Source: Flavobacteriales bacterium (GTDB lineage Bacteria; Bacteroidota; Bacteroidia; Flavobacteriales_G; NORP312). From it: a stretch of DNA of 37,810 nucleotides. Positions 1,568 to 37,810 of this stretch are shown here, piece after piece. Where the stretch lies: contig JAESTK010000005.1 of the NCBI GenBank assembly GCA_016763645.1, positions 1-37,810 on the forward strand. Reading direction: 5' to 3'. Position 1 is the first letter of the stretch. Every line of letters begins with the position of its first letter. A program made the position numbers and the translations under genes. The notes under the pieces were generated by a model. That model worked only from the letters and a program-made list of their open reading frames with translations. It did no database searches and was not told where the DNA came from.

Positions 1568-1810
1568 ATGAATATAGTGAATATAGAGCTGAGCAAAGCC
1601 AGAAGAAGACAACAGTTAATAAATGGCTATTTACTTTTAGTAAAGAGTGATAGAATAGAATTCAACGACATGTATTTTAACGGCAATGAAGTACCAAGTA
1701 TTGAACATGGGTTTTATCGTCTAACTTCGGACTGTATGATTCATGCAGCATCGACAATGACAAAGATGCTGGTAAAAAGAATACTCCCTGAAAACTTAAT
1801 TTTGAAATAA
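1568..1810 (+). CDS. Hypothetical early protein
   Basis: An 80-residue protein that I do not recognise. It starts MNIVNIELSKARRRQQL and has no membrane segment or clear motif. It stands between the zinc-finger-like gene and the Cys-repeat gene in the same direction, with GAGAGCGAT as a weak ribosome site. Its coding sequence carries a near-perfect copy of the phage operator (1630-1645) at codons TAT TTA CTT TTA GTA AAG. That copy might be a real roadblock or silencer, or a coincidence of AT-rich codons. Confidence 0.6.
   Translation: MNIVNIELSKARRRQQLINGYLLLVKSDRIEFNDMYFNGNEVPSIEHGFYRLTSDCMIHAASTMTKMLVKRILPENLILK
1630..1645 (+). promoter_or_regulatory. Intragenic copy of the phage operator (15/16 match)
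   Basis: TTTACTTTTAGTAAAG differs at one base from the operator at 35915-35930 (TTTACTATTAGTAAAG). It lies inside the 1568-1810 gene with no good promoter around it. A single-mismatch match to a 16-mer is not expected by chance in a genome this size, although the AT-rich composition raises the odds. Confidence 0.4.
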
Positions 1811-1834: not shown

Positions 1835-2362
1835 ATGAGCAAAACAGATATATTTGAAAACTATCAAGAATTTTTAAAACGCGAAGATAAGGATGTTAAC
1901 GGTGTTAGTTCTGAATTTGTAAAGACTAACCCAGATTACGAGAAGGACAATAGAACAAATGAAGGGTGTTGGAATTGCCGCGATTGCCGCTATTGCAGCT
2001 CTTGCCGCTATTGCAGCGATTGCCGCGATTGCCGCTATTGCAGCGAGCAAAAAGTTAACAAAAAAGAGAGTATAAAAATTCCTAAAATTGAAAACATCCA
2101 CCAAAAAGTATACGCATCAGTTAGCGTAAAAGGTGCGCTTAGTATGGGTAAATGGCACACTTGCGAAACTACGCATTGTAGGGCTGGTTGGATAACTCAC
2201 TTGGCTGGCGAGGAAGGTAAGAAGGTCGAGGAATTTTATGGGCCTTGCTTAGGGGCTCAACTTATCTATCGTGAAAGCGGGTATCAGATTAACCCTTCAC
2301 GATTCTTTGATGATAATGAATCCGCTATGAGTGACATGAAGCGATTGGCTAACGCTGAATAA
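1835..2362 (+). CDS. Cysteine-tripeptide-repeat protein
   Basis: A 175-residue protein in three parts. It has a polar N-terminus (1-43), then a stretch with Cys at every third residue (about residues 45-71: CWN CRD CRY CSS CRY CSD CRD CRY CSE), then a conserved-looking C-terminal domain with KWHTCETTHCRAGW. Similar combinations occur in phage and bacterial hypothetical proteins, but I know no assigned function. Nine regularly spaced cysteines could bind several metal ions or stack as a short repeat coil. The ribosome site AAAAGGA is well placed. The opposite-strand ORF (AIAAIAA repeats) is a shadow of this repeat. Confidence 0.75.
   Translation: MSKTDIFENYQEFLKREDKDVNGVSSEFVKTNPDYEKDNRTNEGCWNCRDCRYCSSCRYCSDCRDCRYCSEQKVNKKESIKIPKIENIHQKVYASVSVKGALSMGKWHTCETTHCRAGWITHLAGEEGKKVEEFYGPCLGAQLIYRESGYQINPSRFFDDNESAMSDMKRLANAE
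1976..2047 (+). repeat. In-frame 9-bp tandem repeat, 8 units
   Basis: Eight consecutive 9-base units of the form TGC-(CGC/AGC)-NNN encode the Cys-Arg/Ser-X tripeptides of the 1835-2362 protein. Units differ mainly in the third codon (GAT, TAT, TCT, GAG). The preceding TGT TGG AAT forms a degenerate ninth unit. Unit number could vary between relatives by slippage without breaking the frame. Confidence 0.9.
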
Positions 2363-13058: not shown

Positions 13059-13730
13059 CTACAAATCAAATACGTTCTGACCGGCTTGGAAAGCTGCTGG
13101 GTCAGATGGTTGCGTGGTTGTGGTGCTTGGCTGGTTAAAGGCCCCAAATGCTGCTGCGGCGTTGCTTATGCCGCCAGTGATGGCATTTGATTGATTGAAC
13201 GACTCTTGAGCCCTTATATTTCCAACATTGCCCAATAGATTGCCAACGGTTTCACTTGATTGCAATAAACCCGTACCAGTTCTAGCTGCTGCGCTTTCAC
13301 CAACCGTTAATAAGTTAAACAACTGATTGAATCGTTGATTCTGTAATTGCGGAACAACGGTAGATGCCAGCTCTGTATTGAATTGCGTTAAGTCCTGCAA
13401 AGTGCCACCGGCACCAAGCCTACCACCAGCCGCCGCGCTTTCCTGTATGGCTTCAAAACCCTGATCTCGAAGGAAGGAAACTACCGGGTTGATTCGTTCT
13501 AAATCTTGCGTAGGATCAGCAAGCAGGTTCTGTATTTGTTCCCCAGCATCCACGCCGATATTGACAAAAGGATCAAGTATTTCAACAAGTTGGTTTCGTG
13601 CGTCTTCTGCTTCTTGAACTTGCAAAAAGCTAGCATCTACTTGTGCATCTGCTGCATCTGATGCCGCATTACTTTGCACAACACCGCCAACTATGGCGGC
13701 ACCTGCTATTGCTGCTGCTCCCCAAGGCAT
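13059..13730 (-). CDS. Small ejection protein (P22 gp7-like)
   Basis: A 223-residue protein starting with an Ala/Gly-rich hydrophobic helix (residues 4-18, GAAAIAGAAIVGGVV). The rest is helical with repeated Gln/Asn and Ala (QSNAASDAADAQVDAS, NQLVEILDPFVNIG, FNQLFNLLTVGESAAARTGTG). This combination is typical of the first phage DNA-injection protein, and many phage relatives carry the same GGRLGAGGTLQDLTQFN turn. It overlaps the dioxygenase gene upstream by 25 bases in another frame. Confidence 0.65.
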   Translation of the reverse strand: MPWGAAAIAGAAIVGGVVQSNAASDAADAQVDASFLQVQEAEDARNQLVEILDPFVNIGVDAGEQIQNLLADPTQDLERINPVVSFLRDQGFEAIQESAAAGGRLGAGGTLQDLTQFNTELASTVVPQLQNQRFNQLFNLLTVGESAAARTGTGLLQSSETVGNLLGNVGNIRAQESFNQSNAITGGISNAAAAFGAFNQPSTTTTQPSDPAAFQAGQNVFDL

Positions 13731-14293
13731 AACGCGCCCCCCTTACTAAATTTACTTTGGTGTATACAAACTATCATTGCAATTCTGTCTTCATCAGAAT
13801 CATTCTCTACCCAATGTAGCACATCATTCCTAAAGCCAAAAACTTGACCCTCTTCTGGCTCAATGTAACCATCTTCAAAGCAGAACTTTGAACCGGGTTT
13901 ATTCCTTATAGGAACCATGTATTTATCATAAAAAGTGGCATGCCATCCACTATCAATATGTGGTGTTATCTTTCCGCCTGGTGGCAATTTGGTGATAAGC
14001 ACGCCGCCCAATCGATCACCGCATGTAACCTCCATCAATTTTTCACAAATCCCTTTCACTTCTGGTATATCCTTCAACCAAATTGATTCGTGTTCATCTA
14101 AAAATACAGACCAATCACCAGTATCTAAAGAGTATTGTGGATCTTTGAACCTTGCCCAAATATCAACCATTTGACTGTGTGGTGAACCTTCGCTACCACG
14201 TTGAGGGTATTCGCCCCAATAGTCACAAGAGATGAGAAAGTCCCCTAACTCCTCCACATCAAACCTGACACCGATGTCGTTAAACGGTTTCAT
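13706..14293 (-). CDS. Aspartyl/asparaginyl beta-hydroxylase-like dioxygenase
   Basis: A 195-residue protein with the iron-binding facial triad of 2-oxoglutarate dioxygenases: H112-x-D114 (KITPHIDSGWHATF) and H160 (VLHWVEND), plus a later Arg (R170, DEDRIAMI) positioned for 2-oxoglutarate. This arrangement matches the Asp/Asn beta-hydroxylase family, which hydroxylates protein side chains. The substrate here is unknown; a phage virion protein or a host protein are both possible. It overlaps the cupin gene by 14 bases and the small ejection gene by 25, so it is made with the virion proteins. Confidence 0.8.
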   Translation of the reverse strand: MKPFNDIGVRFDVEELGDFLISCDYWGEYPQRGSEGSPHSQMVDIWARFKDPQYSLDTGDWSVFLDEHESIWLKDIPEVKGICEKLMEVTCGDRLGGVLITKLPPGGKITPHIDSGWHATFYDKYMVPIRNKPGSKFCFEDGYIEPEEGQVFGFRNDVLHWVENDSDEDRIAMIVCIHQSKFSKGGALCLGEQQQ

Positions 14294-29668: not shown

Positions 29669-29983
29669 TTAGAAATCATCACATTCATTATCGTACAATG
29701 GAATAGGACAATGCTTTGATCTGGGTTTCATGTTCCTTTCTATAAGGTAATCCCAATGTTGCTTGCATTCCTTGGTTGTTACCAGATGAGGAAAAGGCAT
29801 GCAGTCCATATAACAAACCTTTGCATGATCAAATTCACCCTTCCTTAATCGATATTTGTCTACGCGCATCTCACCAATTCCACACATATGACACTTTGGC
29901 CAATTCTTATACATGACCGGCATCTTAGAAAGGTTTCTTCTGGCCTGACAACAACGCCTGCTACATCGTGCTGGTATCTTCAA
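29669..29983 (-). CDS. Zinc-binding early protein (TTG start)
   Basis: A 104-residue basic protein with many cysteines: an N-terminal RCSRRCCQARR, a CHMC pair and later single Cys and His residues. The N-terminal phrase is common in a group of small phage proteins of unknown function. The start is TTG 29983, backed by AAGGA 7 bases upstream and a TTGA overlap with the HNH gene's stop. Last gene of the leftward early operon. Confidence 0.6.
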   Translation of the reverse strand: MKIPARCSRRCCQARRNLSKMPVMYKNWPKCHMCGIGEMRVDKYRLRKGEFDHAKVCYMDCMPFPHLVTTKECKQHWDYLIERNMKPRSKHCPIPLYDNECDDF

Positions 29984-30369
29984 AATAAAATCCTTGTTTG
30001 GTATGGCTTAAATGCATCAAACATATCTTCATTTTCAAAAGGATGGTCAGGCCACCATGTATTAGATTTTGTTAAATTTTCTTTCTCTGGGATTATTTGG
30101 AGATTCCAAGGCACATGCAGCCCACAAACGATATGTGAGCATATTGGTACTATATGATCAACATGGACATTATCACCGTTATTCCTACGCCGTTTCGCCT
30201 CCATGTAAATTCTTTTATATCCAGAGTGTTCGGAACACCATGTAGGCCATGCCAAATAAAGCTTATTGTAATAGCGTATAGATCTTTTGTAATGAGGGTT
30301 CAACAAGGGATTGTTTTCATCTTGCCTTGATAACCATATTGGATTTGTTTTTTTATATGGTGCGCTCAT
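29980..30369 (-). CDS. HNH endonuclease
   Basis: About 129 residues from ATG 30369 (TTG 30381 in the ORF track is unnecessary). The HNH core is clear: VDHIVPI (residues 70-76), then GLHVPWNLQIIP (83-94) and ENLTKSN (98-104), giving H-N-N/H metal and catalytic residues. HNH proteins in phages may aid packaging with the terminase or act as homing or free nucleases. This one is not next to the terminase, lying about 4 kb upstream at the end of the early operon. Confidence 0.8.
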   Translation of the reverse strand: MSAPYKKTNPIWLSRQDENNPLLNPHYKRSIRYYNKLYLAWPTWCSEHSGYKRIYMEAKRRRNNGDNVHVDHIVPICSHIVCGLHVPWNLQIIPEKENLTKSNTWWPDHPFENEDMFDAFKPYQTRILF

Positions 30370-30568
30370 CTTTATTTCCAAAGTGTTTTTTATCGATCAA
30401 GCATAAAAGCTCAATACCGTTGACGTGTAGCGGTTCATCATCCTTGGACATCATGCAATCGTTTATAAGGTCCGATAGTGCCTGAACCACACTAACACCA
30501 TGCTTTTCTGATACCAGCAAGAGAACGCCTTTCAATGTTTCAGATGTATCAATCTTTGTTAACATCTT
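30353..30568 (-). CDS. Small hypothetical protein
   Basis: About 71 residues from ATG 30568 (GTG 30577 is an alternative). Reads MLTKIDTSETLKGVLLLVSEKHGVSVVQALSDLIND, a compact helical protein with an acidic end. It overlaps both neighbours. No family recognised. Confidence 0.5.
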   Translation of the reverse strand, partial: KMLTKIDTSETLKGVLLLVSEKHGVSVVQALSDLINDCMMSKDDEPLHVNGIELLCLIDKKHFGNKDERTI

Positions 30569-30725
30569 CTTCACCACTCTGGACTTTATCTATGTGTAGT
30601 TTAAAACAATCCATGTCTTCACAGTCGCACTTGTTGCGCTCTGGTATGGAATCCTCTATTGCCCATTTATGAACAAAATTCAGGAACTTATGCATTAGAA
30701 TTATCAATTTTTTTATAATAATCAC
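30549..30725 (-). CDS. Small protein behind an operator-controlled promoter
   Basis: About 58 residues. GTG 30725 sits 8 bases after AGAGG and is preferred over GTG 30734, which overlaps the ribosome site; ATG 30695 would shorten it. A short hydrophobic N-terminus (IIIKKLIILMHKFL) is followed by a Cys/Asp-rich tail (KCDCEDMDCFKLH). It is the first gene after the operator at 30738-30752, so it is the direct target of that promoter. Confidence 0.5.
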   Translation of the reverse strand: MIIIKKLIILMHKFLNFVHKWAIEDSIPERNKCDCEDMDCFKLHIDKVQSGEEDVNKD

Positions 30726-30737
30726 AATAAACACCTC

Positions 30738-30773
30738 TTTACTAATAGTAAAGAATACAGTCTAACTTGTAAA
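30738..30773 (-). promoter_or_regulatory. Operator and promoter (site B)
   Basis: On the - strand TTTACA (30773-30768), a 17-base spacer and TACTAT (30750-30745) make a promoter. The palindrome TTTACTATTAGTAAA (30752-30738) covers the -10. The 15-mer is the same as that at the divergent early region, and its right arm runs into the ribosome site AAAGAGG. A repressor bound here would block polymerase directly. Confidence 0.75.
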
Positions 30774-32974: not shown

Positions 32975-33556
32975 TTATATTTCTGGGTGCTGCTCTCTGA
33001 TGGCGAAATATACTTCCATACACGCTAATGTATCAGCCATTGCAGAATGCGCGTTTTCTAATTCTTTGCCGGTGAAATGCTTATAAGCATCGATAAGTTT
33101 TGGGTTCTTTCCGCCCATTGCTTTACGCGCCATTTGCATTGCACATTTATGATCATCTTTTTCAGCCCAAGAATCAATCAATTCTTCTTTACAATAACGC
33201 TTGTAAGCAATGCGTATAATGCGCTGATCAAACGTTTTGTTGTAAGCCACACGTAAGGCATCACCGCGCATCAATTCGAGCATACCAACAACGTACGGCT
33301 CTGGTATTCCATGTTCAAGCGCAAACTCTTCGGTAATGCCATGTGTTTCAAGCGCCTCCTTGCTCGACTCCCAACCTTCTGGCTTGATAATTAAATCAAT
33401 GCTTTGAATGATTTCTTTTGTATCGGCATCGCACAAGATAGCCGCAAGTTGCACCAAGTGCGGTTGTGTAACGTCATCGGAAGGGATTTTCCAGTTAGGC
33501 ATGTCAGTTGTTTCAGTATCGTAAAAAAGTATTGTGTTATTCGTCATTTTCGTCAT
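32975..33556 (-). CDS. DEDDh-family 3'-5' exonuclease
   Basis: A 193-residue DnaQ-fold exonuclease with all four acidic residues and the His visible: D13 and E15 (FYDTETT), D109 (YNKTFDQRII), H169 and D174 (NAHSAMADTLA). It resembles exodeoxyribonuclease X/RNase T types that trim 3' ends. It starts inside the stop of recT (ATGA), so the two are co-translated, suggesting a part in annealing-type recombination or end processing. Confidence 0.85.
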   Translation of the reverse strand: MTKMTNNTILFYDTETTDMPNWKIPSDDVTQPHLVQLAAILCDADTKEIIQSIDLIIKPEGWESSKEALETHGITEEFALEHGIPEPYVVGMLELMRGDALRVAYNKTFDQRIIRIAYKRYCKEELIDSWAEKDDHKCAMQMARKAMGGKNPKLIDAYKHFTGKELENAHSAMADTLACMEVYFAIREQHPEI

Positions 33557-34515
33557 CCTGAGTTGGTTGGTTGGTTGTCTATCTCTGCTTGTATTGCCAT
33601 TTCTTCTTCTATTATTTTTACGCCTTCCCTCCAGTGTTTTTCTAAAGCTTGTAATTCATCTTTTCTAAAGGATTTTTTATGTTCGTTAACTACTTCGCCG
33701 ATTGCTCTTATTCTTGCTAATGTATCGCAATTGTCCATCAAATGCTTTAGATCAGCAACGGTTGGGGGTGCGCATAGAGGTTCTTCTTCTGGTTCCTCCT
33801 TAGAGTCAGCCACCACTTCAAAAGTCTTCTCTTCAACTTCAGGTTTCTTTATAGAAGAGCTGACTACTTTTTCTGGCGTTATGTCTCTCTCTAATTCAAT
33901 ATCAAATTCCCTGATTTCATCTGGCGTATAAACCCCAAGCATTATCTCGGGGCAATGTAACCTTTCCCATTTCTTAGCGGCCAGGTATGCAAGTTGCTGT
34001 TTTGGATCTGATGCCCATAGAGTAGAGTTTCTTACCTGTGCTTGAGTCAGCAAGAGTCTAGTTTCTGTTGTCTCCTCATCACCTACAAATGTGGCGTAAG
34101 CTATAACACCTAACCCAACCTCATCATCTGCATTCCATGCCGGGGCCATGTATTTCTTTTCACCTCTACCTGTTTTTAATTCAAACTTACCAAGAACGTT
34201 CTCCCATTCACCGAACCATTTAAACTTTAATCGTCCAGTAATTGGCGCTTTGGTATTTATGACGGCTATACACAATTGAGCTTCATAGCCGATAATACCG
34301 TTAACATCATGTGTCTTTTGTGCCACTGACCAGGGCAACATTTCCCATTGACTGGCCTGCATTATAACCGCTAAACAATCAGCAGGGTTGCCGCGTAAAT
34401 GTTTAGGCGTCATCATCTGCCCTTTGGACATGAAATCAGCCAAATTGGACAAAGTTTCCATCTTTTCTGACGAAAGCATTATTTGATTTACTGTTGGGGC
34501 TATTTCTTTACTCAC
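33553..34515 (-). CDS. recT: RecT-family single-strand annealing protein
   Basis: A 320-residue protein of the RecT family: 'NPADCLAVIMQASQWEMLPWSVAQKT', 'GYEAQLCIAVINTKAPITGRLKFKWFGEW' and 'AYLAAKKWERLHCPEIMLGVYTPDEI' follow the family pattern closely. It anneals complementary single strands made by the RecE-like exonuclease. The C-terminal 90 residues are an acidic linker and a basic helix. The start is GTG, spaced 6 bases from GAGGAG. It has its own operator-covered promoter (34542-34569), so it can be expressed apart from the exonuclease upstream. Confidence 0.85.
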   Translation of the reverse strand: MSKEIAPTVNQIMLSSEKMETLSNLADFMSKGQMMTPKHLRGNPADCLAVIMQASQWEMLPWSVAQKTHDVNGIIGYEAQLCIAVINTKAPITGRLKFKWFGEWENVLGKFELKTGRGEKKYMAPAWNADDEVGLGVIAYATFVGDEETTETRLLLTQAQVRNSTLWASDPKQQLAYLAAKKWERLHCPEIMLGVYTPDEIREFDIELERDITPEKVVSSSIKKPEVEEKTFEVVADSKEEPEEEPLCAPPTVADLKHLMDNCDTLARIRAIGEVVNEHKKSFRKDELQALEKHWREGVKIIEEEMAIQAEIDNQPTNSG

Positions 34516-34536: not shown

Positions 34537-34743
34537 TTATAATTGTATACTATTGGTAAAGAATGTAAATGTTAATAATCTTCGTGGTGAGCAGTACTCA
34601 AAGTGTGAGTAATATTCTACTTGCTTTGAAAATCTATAGCTGTTACGCACCTTAAACCAAAAAATCCATCTGTACCTATAACCTTCTTTCGCGTTGTCTA
34701 TCCAATAGCCGTAACTAGCTATCATCACATTCCCTGATATCAT
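34537..34743 (-). CDS. Small hypothetical protein over the recT promoter
   Basis: A 68-residue aromatic-rich protein (MISGNVMIASYGYWIDNAKEGYRYRWIFWFK...). The start at ATG 34743 overlaps the preceding stop. Its last codons run through the recT promoter and operator. Aromatic, Arg-rich composition and lack of a family make it less certain than its neighbours, but the slot would otherwise be empty. Confidence 0.45.
   Translation of the reverse strand: MISGNVMIASYGYWIDNAKEGYRYRWIFWFKVRNSYRFSKQVEYYSHFEYCSPRRLLTFTFFTNSIQL
34542..34569 (-). promoter_or_regulatory. Operator and promoter of recT (site C)
   Basis: On the - strand TTTACA (34569-34564), a 16-base spacer and TACAAT (34547-34542) form a promoter ending about 27 bases before the recT GTG. 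The operator copy at 34546-34561 (TATACTATTGGTAAAG on the + strand, 14/16 match) fills the spacer and touches the -10. Confidence 0.7.
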
Positions 34744-34994
34744 CACTTACCACCTTCGTTAGGCTTAAAGATTTCAAAACTATTTCCAAAATCCGTTTCT
34801 GTGATTGAGACGCCCCAGTTAGATTTGGCCATTTTGACAAAATCTTCTACATCTTCTCTCCTTGCTGGACCCATGCGATCTATCATTGACAAGTTGTCTT
34901 GTGAAGCATCCCTTACTAATGAGCCAGGAACAATTATTGCGTGTCCCTTTGGTAGTCCCAACGCTATCTTAAATATTTTCATTTGTGCACTCAT
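34743..34994 (-). CDS. Small hypothetical protein
   Basis: An 83-residue protein with GLPKGHAIIVPGSLVRDAS and a basic helix (ARREDVEDFVKMAKSNWGVSITE). AGGTGG precedes the ATG. It follows the exonuclease gene by 15 bases. No family recognised; probably soluble. Confidence 0.55.
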   Translation of the reverse strand: MSAQMKIFKIALGLPKGHAIIVPGSLVRDASQDNLSMIDRMGPARREDVEDFVKMAKSNWGVSITETDFGNSFEIFKPNEGGK

Positions 34995-35009
34995 TACGCC
35001 ACCTCTTTA

Positions 35010-35858
35010 TCAGTCATAATAACCCCAGTTAGGTATTCCAATAGATTGAGATCCACCACCATTCATCAAAGGCCAGACACCCTTTTCAGTGCAATCATTT
35101 ATTCTTGCTAGGTATCGTTCTCTTAATTCATAACCCCTTTGTAGTGAACATTCATCTAACGTGTAAACAGCCACAGAGAATGGATATTTAGACGATACGA
35201 CGATGAATATAAATTGTTCATGGTTCAAGCCAAACAATTGCCTTTCGCCCTCCAGGTAATGCGCTGCACTTATGTGGTAACCAAATTTCTGTATCGTCCT
35301 TGAAAATCCTGATGGGCTAACATCAACCGTAGTTTTCAAATCTGCCAGCATCCAGCTAGATTTAACATCTGGTCGATACTTGCAAGAGAGCCCGGTTCCT
35401 TGATCAACGTAAAACCCTGAACTCTCGAATTCATTTGAATTTGATAGCAAACCCATTTCAATGACTTCAGGATGAGATCTGACGGACTCGCACATCAATC
35501 GTGATATCTCTGCTTGATCTTTGGTTATGATGGTTTTGCCTTGATTAACGTCTGCAAATTCTTGTAGGATGATTTTATTGGCCTTTGACCAAGGAAGGTC
35601 TGGCTTAATGGCGATATCTTCGTTGAATGTTTCAGGCTCAAGCACTCGTTTATGTACCGTTGTACCAAGCCTGATAGCATCAGTTACATTGAATGGTAGA
35701 TTGCCATCAATGCTTAGCTTATAAAGGTGCATAGATTCACCGGCTATCTTTAAAGACGTACTACCAATGGCGCTAGACGCATGATAATCAGAGTTACTAA
35801 CTCCATCATAGAGCCCTGGCTTAAACTCTTTACTAGGGTTAAACGCCTCTAATTCCAT
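35010..35858 (-). CDS. RecE-like PD-(D/E)XK exonuclease (DUF3799 type)
   Basis: A 282-residue nuclease. The N-terminus (GLYDGVSNSDYHASSAIGSTSLK) and 'RLGTTVHKRVLEPETF' (H69) are typical of exonuclease VIII C-terminal/DUF3799 proteins. The active site shows D164 (KYRPD) and D173-x-K175 (LADLKTT), followed by a Gln/Tyr helix (FGYHISAAHYLEG). It would chew 5' ends of duplex DNA to feed RecT. First gene of the leftward operon, with AAGGA ahead of the ATG and the divergent operator upstream. Confidence 0.8.
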   Translation of the reverse strand: MELEAFNPSKEFKPGLYDGVSNSDYHASSAIGSTSLKIAGESMHLYKLSIDGNLPFNVTDAIRLGTTVHKRVLEPETFNEDIAIKPDLPWSKANKIILQEFADVNQGKTIITKDQAEISRLMCESVRSHPEVIEMGLLSNSNEFESSGFYVDQGTGLSCKYRPDVKSSWMLADLKTTVDVSPSGFSRTIQKFGYHISAAHYLEGERQLFGLNHEQFIFIVVSSKYPFSVAVYTLDECSLQRGYELRERYLARINDCTEKGVWPLMNGGGSQSIGIPNWGYYD

Positions 35859-35900
35859 ACGTGCAAATCCTTAGATACATTCAGATAATCGAGAAATAAC

Positions 35901-35936
35901 AATTTACTTGATTGTTTACTATTAGTAAAGTATTAT
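35901..35936. promoter_or_regulatory. Divergent early promoters sharing one operator (site A)
   Basis: Rightward: TTGATT (35908-35913), 17 bases, TATTAT (35931-35936). The spacer is filled by the palindrome TTTACTATTAGTAAAG (35915-35930), with arms TTTACTA/TAGTAAA around one base. Leftward: TTTACT (35929-35924), 17 bases, TAAATT (35906-35901), so the same palindrome covers that -35. One bound repressor would shut both early operons. A single operator shared by both directions is simpler than lambda's three-site pairs. Confidence 0.75.
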
Positions 35937-35968
35937 TTTATCCACTGAGCAACAAATGGGGAAGTTTA

Positions 35969-36241
35969 ATGGTTACCAAAAGAGTCAGACGCAAGAAACT
36001 TAGTATTGAGGATTTCTGTAAAAAAACGGGAATTATGAAGGTAGATTTGGCGCACATCTTTGATGTATCAAAACAAAGGATCAATAGCTTTTTAATATCA
36101 ACGAACCCTAATATCTTTGTTATGTTTAACGAAGATGAAGGTGTTGTTGAACTGGAGCGAGATGGTGAAACTATACTATCTGGCAAAATACCAATGTCTG
36201 TATCTGTGAAAGCGAGCAGATCTAAAAAACGAAAGGTTTAA
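35969..36241 (+). CDS. Small HTH regulator, first rightward gene (candidate repressor/Cro)
   Basis: A 90-residue basic protein from ATG 35969 (GGGGAAG upstream; the ORF-track start at 35912 would run through the promoter). Residues 12-42 (IEDFCKKTGIMKVDLAHIFDVSKQRINSFLI) read as a helix-turn-helix. A short beta segment (VVELERDGETILSGKI) and an Arg/Lys tail follow. Being first behind the shared operator, it is the best candidate for the protein that binds the TTTACTA sites, but this is inference from position. Confidence 0.6.
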   Translation: MVTKRVRRKKLSIEDFCKKTGIMKVDLAHIFDVSKQRINSFLISTNPNIFVMFNEDEGVVELERDGETILSGKIPMSVSVKASRSKKRKV

Positions 36242-36243
36242 AT

Positions 36244-36486
36244 ATGAAACAACCAAATACACAAGGCGAGGTTAAGTTTAACCTTTTAGTAACCTTATCT
36301 AACTATTCTACTCGCGACGTTGAAACATTTAAAACACATATGATATCCGATTTTTGCGCCTGCGGTATCCCTGTTATAGGCAAGAGAATGATGTTATTAA
36401 CAGCCGCACACCATGAGGCTCGCATGAGGATAGGCCGAGATCTAACAGTCACAGAGATATCAGACATAGATGGATGGGCTGTATAA
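36244..36486 (+). CDS. Small hypothetical protein between regulators
   Basis: An 80-residue protein, two bases after the HTH gene. It reads as a small alpha/beta fold with 'KFNLLVTLSNYSTRDVETFKTHMISDFCACGIPVIG'. Not recognised. It could be a partner of the neighbouring regulators, as position alone suggests. Confidence 0.55.
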   Translation: MKQPNTQGEVKFNLLVTLSNYSTRDVETFKTHMISDFCACGIPVIGKRMMLLTAAHHEARMRIGRDLTVTEISDIDGWAV

Positions 36487-36488
36487 CT

Positions 36489-36902
36489 ATGAACATTATA
36501 CAAATAACAAGTCTTGCCAATAAGATGGTGATGAGGAATATAAAATTAAGACTTCGCCACTTTGGTTGTAATCATAACCTTAGCACTGTGCAGGTTATGA
36601 TCCTCGTTAATATTAATGAGGGTGTTAATGGTGTAAATATTATATCAAAAGAATTGCTATTAACTAGGCAAGCAGTTCACCAAGTAGTTCACAAGATGAT
36701 TGAGATCGGATACCTCAGACTTGTTCGCAGTGACAGAGATAAGCGTTTCAAGGCCATAGAATTTACCGATAAGGGTTGTTACTACGCATATATAACCGAA
36801 CTGATAATAGATGACACTGAAGACTTCATGAGCTTGATGCTAGGTGATGAGAAAATGTGTCTTTTAAAGGATGTTCTCAACACCATAATCGTTCCTAAGT
36901 AA
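36489..36902 (+). CDS. MarR-like winged-helix regulator
   Basis: About 137 residues from ATG 36489; ATG 36474 is the ORF-track start. The centre has the MarR pattern: 'STVQVMILVNINEG' helix, 'ISKELLLTRQAVHQVVHKMIEIGYL' recognition helix, and the wing 'LVRSDRDKRFKAIEFTDKG'. MarR proteins are usually dimers controlling operons through palindromes. Free MarR genes are unusual in phage switch regions; this may regulate phage promoters or host genes. It ends 68 bases before the XRE gene. Confidence 0.7.
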   Translation: MNIIQITSLANKMVMRNIKLRLRHFGCNHNLSTVQVMILVNINEGVNGVNIISKELLLTRQAVHQVVHKMIEIGYLRLVRSDRDKRFKAIEFTDKGCYYAYITELIIDDTEDFMSLMLGDEKMCLLKDVLNTIIVPK

Positions 36903-36969: not shown

Positions 36970-37188
36970 ATGAAAAATAATGTCAAAAAGTTAAGAAAGG
37001 AATGCAATCTAACCCTTCAGGATATAGCCGATATAACTGGCTTATCCAAATCATACTTATGCGAGTTGGAAAAGGGGAAATACTGCCCAAGCCTAAGATA
37101 TGCACGCGTAATATCAAATGCATTGAATAACACAATGGACAAAGTGTTCCCTGATGAATGGATGGGGTCTGATCATGGCCAGAGCTAG
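36970..37188 (+). CDS. XRE-family HTH regulator
   Basis: A 72-residue protein from ATG 36970 after AAAAGGA; the TTG start at 36916 in the ORF track would run through the dyad and is rejected. Residues 5-57 are a classic XRE/Cro helix-turn-helix (KKLRKECNLTLQDIADITGLSKSYLCELEKGKYCPS). There is no dimerisation domain beyond it, as in Cro-sized proteins. It overlaps the initiator by 14 bases, so regulator and replication gene are co-expressed. Confidence 0.8.
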   Translation: MKNNVKKLRKECNLTLQDIADITGLSKSYLCELEKGKYCPSLRYARVISNALNNTMDKVFPDEWMGSDHGQS

Positions 37189-37810
37189 AAACATAAAGCC
37201 CGGGTTTTTCATCAATGATGATCTTGGGGATATAGAGCCTTTGGGGCGATTGCTATTCGTTGGAATGTGGACAATTGCCGACTACAAAGGTGATTTTGAG
37301 TGGCGAGAAAAACGAGTTAAAGCCCAGCTTTTACCATACGATAATTGCGACATTACAAAACTCGCGATTAATCTGGATCAATCTGGATTTATTCGGTTCT
37401 ACTCTGTGCAAGATAAATTGTACTGTCGAGTGGTTAATTTTTGTACACATCAGAACCCGCACAAGAACGAGAGGGATAAAGGGTCTGAAATTCCAGCGTT
37501 CAATGAAAAGACTCGGCAAGCTATTGATTTTAATACACTCACGATTAATCTCGATCAATCCAGATTAAAACGGAACGACTCTGCTAGTGATCCTGCTGAT
37601 TCCCTTAACCTGATTCCTGATTCCTTTACCCCGAAACCTGAAACCGGAAACCTGATTCCTGACACCCTCGACGCGTACGACGCGATGAATCAAAAACAAA
37701 ACCTTGTTTCTGAAGAAACTGATGTGTGCTTGTCGCCATTTGAAAGATTTTGGGATGCTTACGGGAAAAAAGAAAAACGCAAAGCTTGCGAGAAAAAATG
37801 GAAATCAAAA
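37175..37810 (+). CDS. Replication initiator, N-terminal part (lambda O-like; continues at 1-417)
   Basis: This frame is absent from the ORF track because it runs off the window. It opens at ATG 37175, runs through the terminal repeat and ends at 417 on the other side (307 residues in all). The N-terminal 100 residues (IKPGFFINDDLGDIEPLGRLLFVGMWTIAD, QLLPYDNCDITKLAINL, SGFIRFYSVQDKLYCRVVNF) have the winged-helix look of phage replisome organisers. Residues 130-170 are a Pro/Asp/Ser linker whose DNA holds iteron-like repeats. The C-terminal part probably binds the loader made by the next gene. The overlap with the XRE gene and the position match an O/P replication block. Confidence 0.75.
   Translation, partial: MARARNIKPGFFINDDLGDIEPLGRLLFVGMWTIADYKGDFEWREKRVKAQLLPYDNCDITKLAINLDQSGFIRFYSVQDKLYCRVVNFCTHQNPHKNERDKGSEIPAFNEKTRQAIDFNTLTINLDQSRLKRNDSASDPADSLNLIPDSFTPKPETGNLIPDTLDAYDAMNQKQNLVSEETDVCLSPFERFWDAYGKKEKRKACEKKWKSK
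37366..37566 (+). repeat. Paired 24-bp repeats inside the initiator gene
   Basis: Two 24-base units (37366-37389 and 37543-37566) agree at 21 positions, each starting GATTAATCT and carrying GATCAATC and GATT. They lie 177 bases apart in the same frame and encode INLDQSG/INLDQSR. Each has internal dyad symmetry. They may be initiator-binding sites or a trace of protein duplication. Confidence 0.55.
37596..37662 (+). repeat. Iteron-like CTGATTCC cluster, candidate replication origin
   Basis: CTGATTCC occurs four times within 64 bases (37596, 37610, 37617, 37652), and a 14-base unit AACCTGATTCCTGA occurs twice exactly (37607 and 37649). An A-rich stretch follows across the joint (positions 8-140). 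Iterons plus an AT-rich tract inside the initiator gene, over its linker, are the layout of the lambda origin. The product of this gene would bind the iterons. Confidence 0.6.
37682..37810. repeat. Direct terminal repeat (right copy)
   Basis: Identical to bases 1-129. Dropping one copy gives the circular unit and joins the initiator gene in frame. Confidence 0.95.

Follow-up and report, generated by a model that had tools for sequence, protein, structure and literature searches.

Several phages control early genes through short repeated operators. In phage lambda, the annotated operators are 17 bp in length and lie over PR, just before cro. The use of operators dispersed over a genome under the command of one repressor is a principle that is established in other phages. 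The C1 repressor of phage P1 acts at 22 operators of 17 bp that are scattered over the genome (PMC8546580). L5-type mycobacteriophages employ one repressor that recognizes dispersed sites, termed stoperators, some of which are located away from promoters (PMC9283540). In SPbeta a single phage protein, MrpR, reads repeated intergenic elements (SPBRE) at promoters; these elements were predicted from sequence long before MrpR was found (PMC10516654).

The phage described here comes from a contig binned with a Flavobacteriales bacterium. The window, namely the whole stretch of 37,810 bp that was analysed, is the complete contig. As bases 1–129 are identical to bases 37682–37810, forming an exact terminal repeat of 129 bp, the contig is most likely a phage genome of 37,681 bp (∼37.68 kb) in circular or circularly permuted form. 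The head genes are P22-like and specify portal (phrog_156), scaffold (phrog_8865) and coat (phrog_283) proteins. One gene among the structural genes, 13706–14293, encodes an aspartyl/asparaginyl beta-hydroxylase-like domain (PF05118), and gene 1835..2362 contains a tract of short near-repeats (TGCCGC/TATTGCAGC) at 1960–2050. The early genes diverge from a gap at 35859–35968. The leftward block comprises recE, recT and an exonuclease gene; the rightward block consists of four small genes followed by a replication initiator (phrog_12556), whose gene spans the contig joint from 37154 to 417. No cI gene is interposed between the two blocks, which share one common control region. The features discussed below are collected in Table 1.

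Table 1. Coordinates of the predicted operators and promoters and of the genes around them
Feature	Coordinates	Strand	Remarks
O1, GTTTACTATTAGTAAAG	35914..35930		In 110-bp gap between recE (-) and gene 35969 (+)
O2, GTATACTATTGGTAAAG	34545..34561		In 227-bp gap upstream of recT
O3, CTTTACTAATAGTAAAG	30737..30753		Palindrome with no mismatch; immediately precedes the ribosome-binding site of the 30725 gene
O4, ATTTACTTTTAGTAAAG	1629..1645		Operator-like; inside ORF 1568..1810
Predicted rightward early promoter	35908..35936	+	TTGATT-17-TATTAT; consensus match only
Predicted recT promoter	34542..34569	-	TTTACA-16-TACAAT; overlapped by O2
Predicted promoter of the 30725 gene block	30745..30773	-	TTTACA-17-TACTAT; -10 inside O3
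Inverted repeat, TTCTGTATTCCGT-N8-ACGGAATACAGAA	36924..36957		Perfect, 13-bp arms; just upstream of XRE gene 36970
RecE/exonuclease VIII-like gene (recE)	35010..35858	-	phrog_412, E 3e-64
recT	33553..34515	-	phrog_561, E 4e-86; Pfam RecT
30725 gene	30549..30725	-	Small gene behind O3
HNH/endonuclease VII-like gene	29980..30381		Among the genes after the 30725 gene; phrog_1035, phrog_26577
Gene 35969	35969..36241	+	First gene of rightward operon, 90 aa, helix-turn-helix
Gene 36244	36244..36486	+	Second gene of rightward operon, 80 aa
Gene 36474	36474..36902	+	Third gene; MarR-type winged-helix, Pfam MarR_2 (PF12802), 31.2 bits, cut-off 27
Gene 36970	36970..37188	+	XRE regulator, 72 aa; Pfam HTH_3, 46.3 bits

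An earlier reading of the letters alone, the sequence-only reading, had proposed that one 16-bp operator recurs at 35915, 30738 and 34546. These three matches are present as claimed, together with a fourth copy at 1629 that had been missed. The 16-mer, TTTACTATTAGTAAAG, is exact at 35915–35930 (+) and at 30737–30752 (-), and shows one mismatch at 1630–1645 and two at 34546–34561. At up to three mismatches it gives eight strand-hits where 0.40 are expected, a number reached by none of 100 shuffles. The element is best described as an odd palindrome of 17 bp centred on one base, CTTTACTAWTAGTAAAG, from which O3 (30737) departs at no position, O1 (35914) at one, O4 (1629) at two and O2 (34545), the weakest operator, at three; the phage genome harbours no further 17-mer at three or fewer mismatches. 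When all palindromes in the window are scanned with no preset motif, the CTTTACTAWTAGTAAAG family ranks first. Half-sites occur at chance level (10 found, 9.5 expected), and the enrichment therefore concerns the whole palindrome rather than its half.

A matrix scan of the whole genome, the check that had been suggested for the three original sites, places the four copies on top with a clear gap. In leave-one-out scans each omitted site still falls within the top four, at 16.2–23.1 bits, and the best non-site attains at most 12.9 bits, the gap exceeding 3 bits in every case. A matrix built from the sites at 30737 and 35914 alone places those at 1629 and 34545 third and fourth; scores of that height are expected 0 and 0.075 times, respectively, per Markov genome. 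Many equally good matches away from promoters would have spoken against an operator: just one extra site, the intragenic copy at 1629, was found. The four sites look like genuine, phage-specific operators.

Their placement, too, departs from random. On a gene list hand-picked from the open reading frames, intergenic DNA makes up 3.6% of the genome; three of the four sites are fully intergenic, compared with 2.7% of 17-mers (P about 8e-5). All three intergenic sites overlap promoter-like sequence aimed at the right gene, whereas among intergenic 17-mers in general 13% overlap such sequence, both strands being considered; the comparison is not fully independent, as some letters of the hexamers lie within the operator. 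The proposal that each copy named at the outset covers promoter-like sequence is thus borne out for 35914, 34545 and 30737 in the right orientation, at the level of predicted promoters. O1 coincides exactly with the 17-bp spacer of the predicted promoter that precedes gene 35969. In the leftward direction it lies over the -35 of a putative weaker recE promoter, TTTACT-17-TAAATT (8/12), which was proposed by eye and lies below the scan threshold. O3 is directly followed by AGAGGTG, the ribosome-binding site of the 30725 gene. O4 sits in a run of Leu-Leu-Leu codons and has no promoter-like match in the promoter scan. Consensus promoters are no commoner across the region than in shuffles (25 found, 24.7 expected), and the promoters are for this reason regarded as plausible and predicted. 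Activation of the MerR type was set aside: MerR promoters have a spacer of 19–20 bp, and the spacer here is 17 bp.

Could the matches be the product of chance or of codon usage, devoid of any regulatory role? The codon run around O4 and the frequency of promoter-like matches in AT-rich DNA speak for such a view, but the shuffles, the leave-one-out scans and the intergenic enrichment make it very improbable. Only slightly less remote is the idea that the sites are read by a host regulator, perhaps an activator, through a control circuit that the phage has borrowed from its host. Operators of host type can occur in phages, and promoter scans that detect consensus matches only say nothing on activation. 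However, the 15-base core at one mismatch or fewer is found nowhere in the 3.3-Mb host assembly beyond this contig, and at three mismatches or fewer the pattern is rarer than a reversed control (427 against 486). As no host site exists at the former threshold and no enrichment at the latter, a host regulon is unlikely, and the search of the assembly argues for a reader encoded by the phage. This argument is subject to the caveat that the contig may be mis-binned, which renders the true host uncertain.

Among the phage proteins, the most likely reader of the 17-bp operators is the product of gene 35969, the first gene behind the main operator O1. A weak similarity to lambda Cro extends over residues 9–59, which correspond to the helix-turn-helix and the first beta strands. 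The pairwise score of 37.5 is reached by 1% of shuffles. Against a profile of 13 lambda-Cro sequences the protein scores 9.2 bits (E 0.052 over 1004 sequences) and beats all 1000 of its own shuffles in a co-linear match of residues 9–59 to profile positions 2–49; the products of 36244, 36474 and 36970 do not beat their shuffles against the same profile. The resemblance was noticed by eye before it was tested, and the profile match is taken as moderate evidence. No family match emerges for 35969 in Pfam, PHROGs or NCBIfam at the usual thresholds. The protein has no Pfam match, lies below the curated cut-off of the lambda Cro family (PF09048) and is devoid of the C-terminal E-x-x-x-F-P motif and tail; most of the 13 Cro proteins in the alignment have the motif. 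Because 35969 fails both the model cut-off and the C-terminal motif, the claim, made with moderate confidence, is that it may have the function of a Cro, and not that it belongs to the family. An AlphaFold model from the single sequence (pLDDT 51) is too poor to use. A search for 35969 in 395 genomes of the class returns only the protein itself, and a survey of the Pfam Cro family in 395 genomes yields one sub-threshold match.

Two further regulators of the rightward block have to be weighed against it. The product of 36474 possesses a MarR winged-helix domain above the family cut-off, which makes it a much surer regulator than 35969, and its gene is part of the operon that O1 precedes. Palindromes of roughly this length are typical targets of MarR dimers, and 36474 might repress its own operon as well as the recombination genes, perhaps in response to a small molecule or to redox state. 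Such a role is possible but doubtful: the gene is third in the operon and not first, the searches gave no relative whose operator is known, and nothing ties CTTTACTAWTAGTAAAG to MarR proteins specifically. Gene 35969 is moderately favoured over 36474. The XRE protein 36970, which the sequence-only reading had also listed as a candidate, has the best-supported helix-turn-helix domain of the three regulators and belongs to a typical phage repressor family. Directly upstream of its gene, however, is a different perfect inverted repeat with 13-bp arms, which bears no evident half-site likeness to the 17-mer and has no further good copies in the genome. This single-copy repeat is probably a separate, putative operator read by 36970 itself; that the protein should read both its own repeat and the 17-bp operators is unlikely.

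With 35969 as the preferred reader, the following scheme can be proposed. A dimeric DNA-binding protein encoded by the phage would occupy four copies of the 17-bp odd palindrome: three in early promoter regions, those of the divergent recE/rightward genes, of recT and of the 30725 block, and one inside a gene. The bound protein, for which the lambda-Cro-like product of gene 35969 is the likeliest candidate, would block RNA polymerase at these early promoters; recE would be controlled leftward from O1 and recT from O2. By limiting its own operon the protein would exert negative feedback, and the recombination genes would be turned down as infection proceeds, amounting to a shut-off of early genes that dispenses with a CI-type lysogeny partner. 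We consider the chances to be evenly balanced that the sites constitute such a small dispersed regulon, read by a Cro-like 35969 and serving feedback and early shut-off with no CI partner.

The genetic make-up of the phage bears on this role. No integrase or CI-like repressor was detected among the larger proteins scanned, many of the smallest genes lying outside that scan. Since neither was found and no cI gene separates the early blocks, feedback limitation or shut-off of early genes is the simplest role for the sites. The control region had been viewed as the main switch of the phage; in the sense of a lysogeny switch this finds no support among the genes scanned, and the arrangement reads instead as a feedback turn-down. 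A plasmid-like prophage state may nevertheless exist. More tentative is a stricter version, in which a Cro-type repressor operates with no CI in a non-integrating phage, purely by feedback and through single operators dispersed among several early operons, and in which the intragenic copy would serve as a roadblock to transcription.

The searches turned up no relative that shares these regulators or operators, and the operator model consequently receives no evolutionary support. Searches of IMG/VR disclose no relatives of the MarR-like, RecT or 35969 proteins; RecE has none in the GTDB genomes searched, and RecT in 60 host relatives is represented only by the copy in the window. The coat-protein relatives (24 contigs) contain no operator and no RecT match. 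The 80 loci of replication-gene relatives contain neither the regulators nor the operator at two or fewer mismatches. Surveys with PHROG_11961 and PHROG_35 were discarded, as generic MarR/HTH proteins matched everywhere and gave no discrimination.

The exact palindrome does occur in other viral contigs, mostly as single matches among the matches listed, which are probably due to chance. Multiple copies are present in L024/L108 and in Vibrio phage MAR10, two unrelated phage groups. Neither harbours a convincing homologue of the regulators in the window, and these palindromes therefore do not identify the reader; the shared sequence may be a coincidence after a very large search. In the AT-rich group of L024 (5573–6994) and L108 (2209–3630), TTTACTAATAGTAAA palindromes lie directly upstream of -10-like sequences. 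Across the whole 78.7-kb genome of MAR10 (L371–L374), TTTAGTAAA/TTTACTAAA appears 60 times, with copies in both orientations, as against ∼1 expected from base composition, and in Vibrio phage SD2 (L379) it appears 31 times in 45 kb. This excess is extreme in Mardecavirus genomes, and both MAR10 and SD2 encode a ParB-like protein.

In common with lambda Cro, the operators are odd palindromes of 17 bp and overlie the early promoter of the candidate reader's own gene, the first behind the rightward promoter; to this is added the weak similarity in the helix-turn-helix and first strands. The arrangement differs from lambda in that each of at least three promoter regions has a single site, and in a divergent gene that is recE and not cI, no CI having been found. 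Near-identical sites at several separate predicted promoters, the divergent recE/rightward region, recT and the 30725 gene, are the trait of a dispersed-operator regulon, as had been suggested. The accompanying contrast with lambda and P22 is justified as regards the layout, but phage regulons with dispersed operators were already known from P1, L5 and SPbeta. Although P1 C1 also relies on dispersed 17-bp operators, these lack symmetry, occur in larger number and serve to maintain lysogeny. Sites located away from promoters in L5-type phages could serve as a model for the copy at 1629; however, L5-type sites are asymmetric 13-mers, number more than twenty and are read by a monomeric protein in a temperate phage. 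MrpR of SPbeta is a recombinase-fold protein devoted to lysogeny control. Replication-gene relatives have repeated palindromes of their own, in several cases arranged in two clusters, in 31 of 68 loci as against 9 of 68 shuffles, a figure that overstates the independent cases, many loci being near-duplicates of one another. Loci L280, L291–L295, L303–L309 and L317 each display a repeated palindrome family near the replication gene, but their sites are clustered like lambda OL/OR and have other sequences, none with the operator of the window.

If the proposed scheme is true, this phage would possess a compact and easily testable regulon with one operator per promoter, in which the recombination genes are tied to the early control region in the absence of visible lysogeny genes. 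The finding would then bear on whether Cro-like proteins keep their role once CI is absent.
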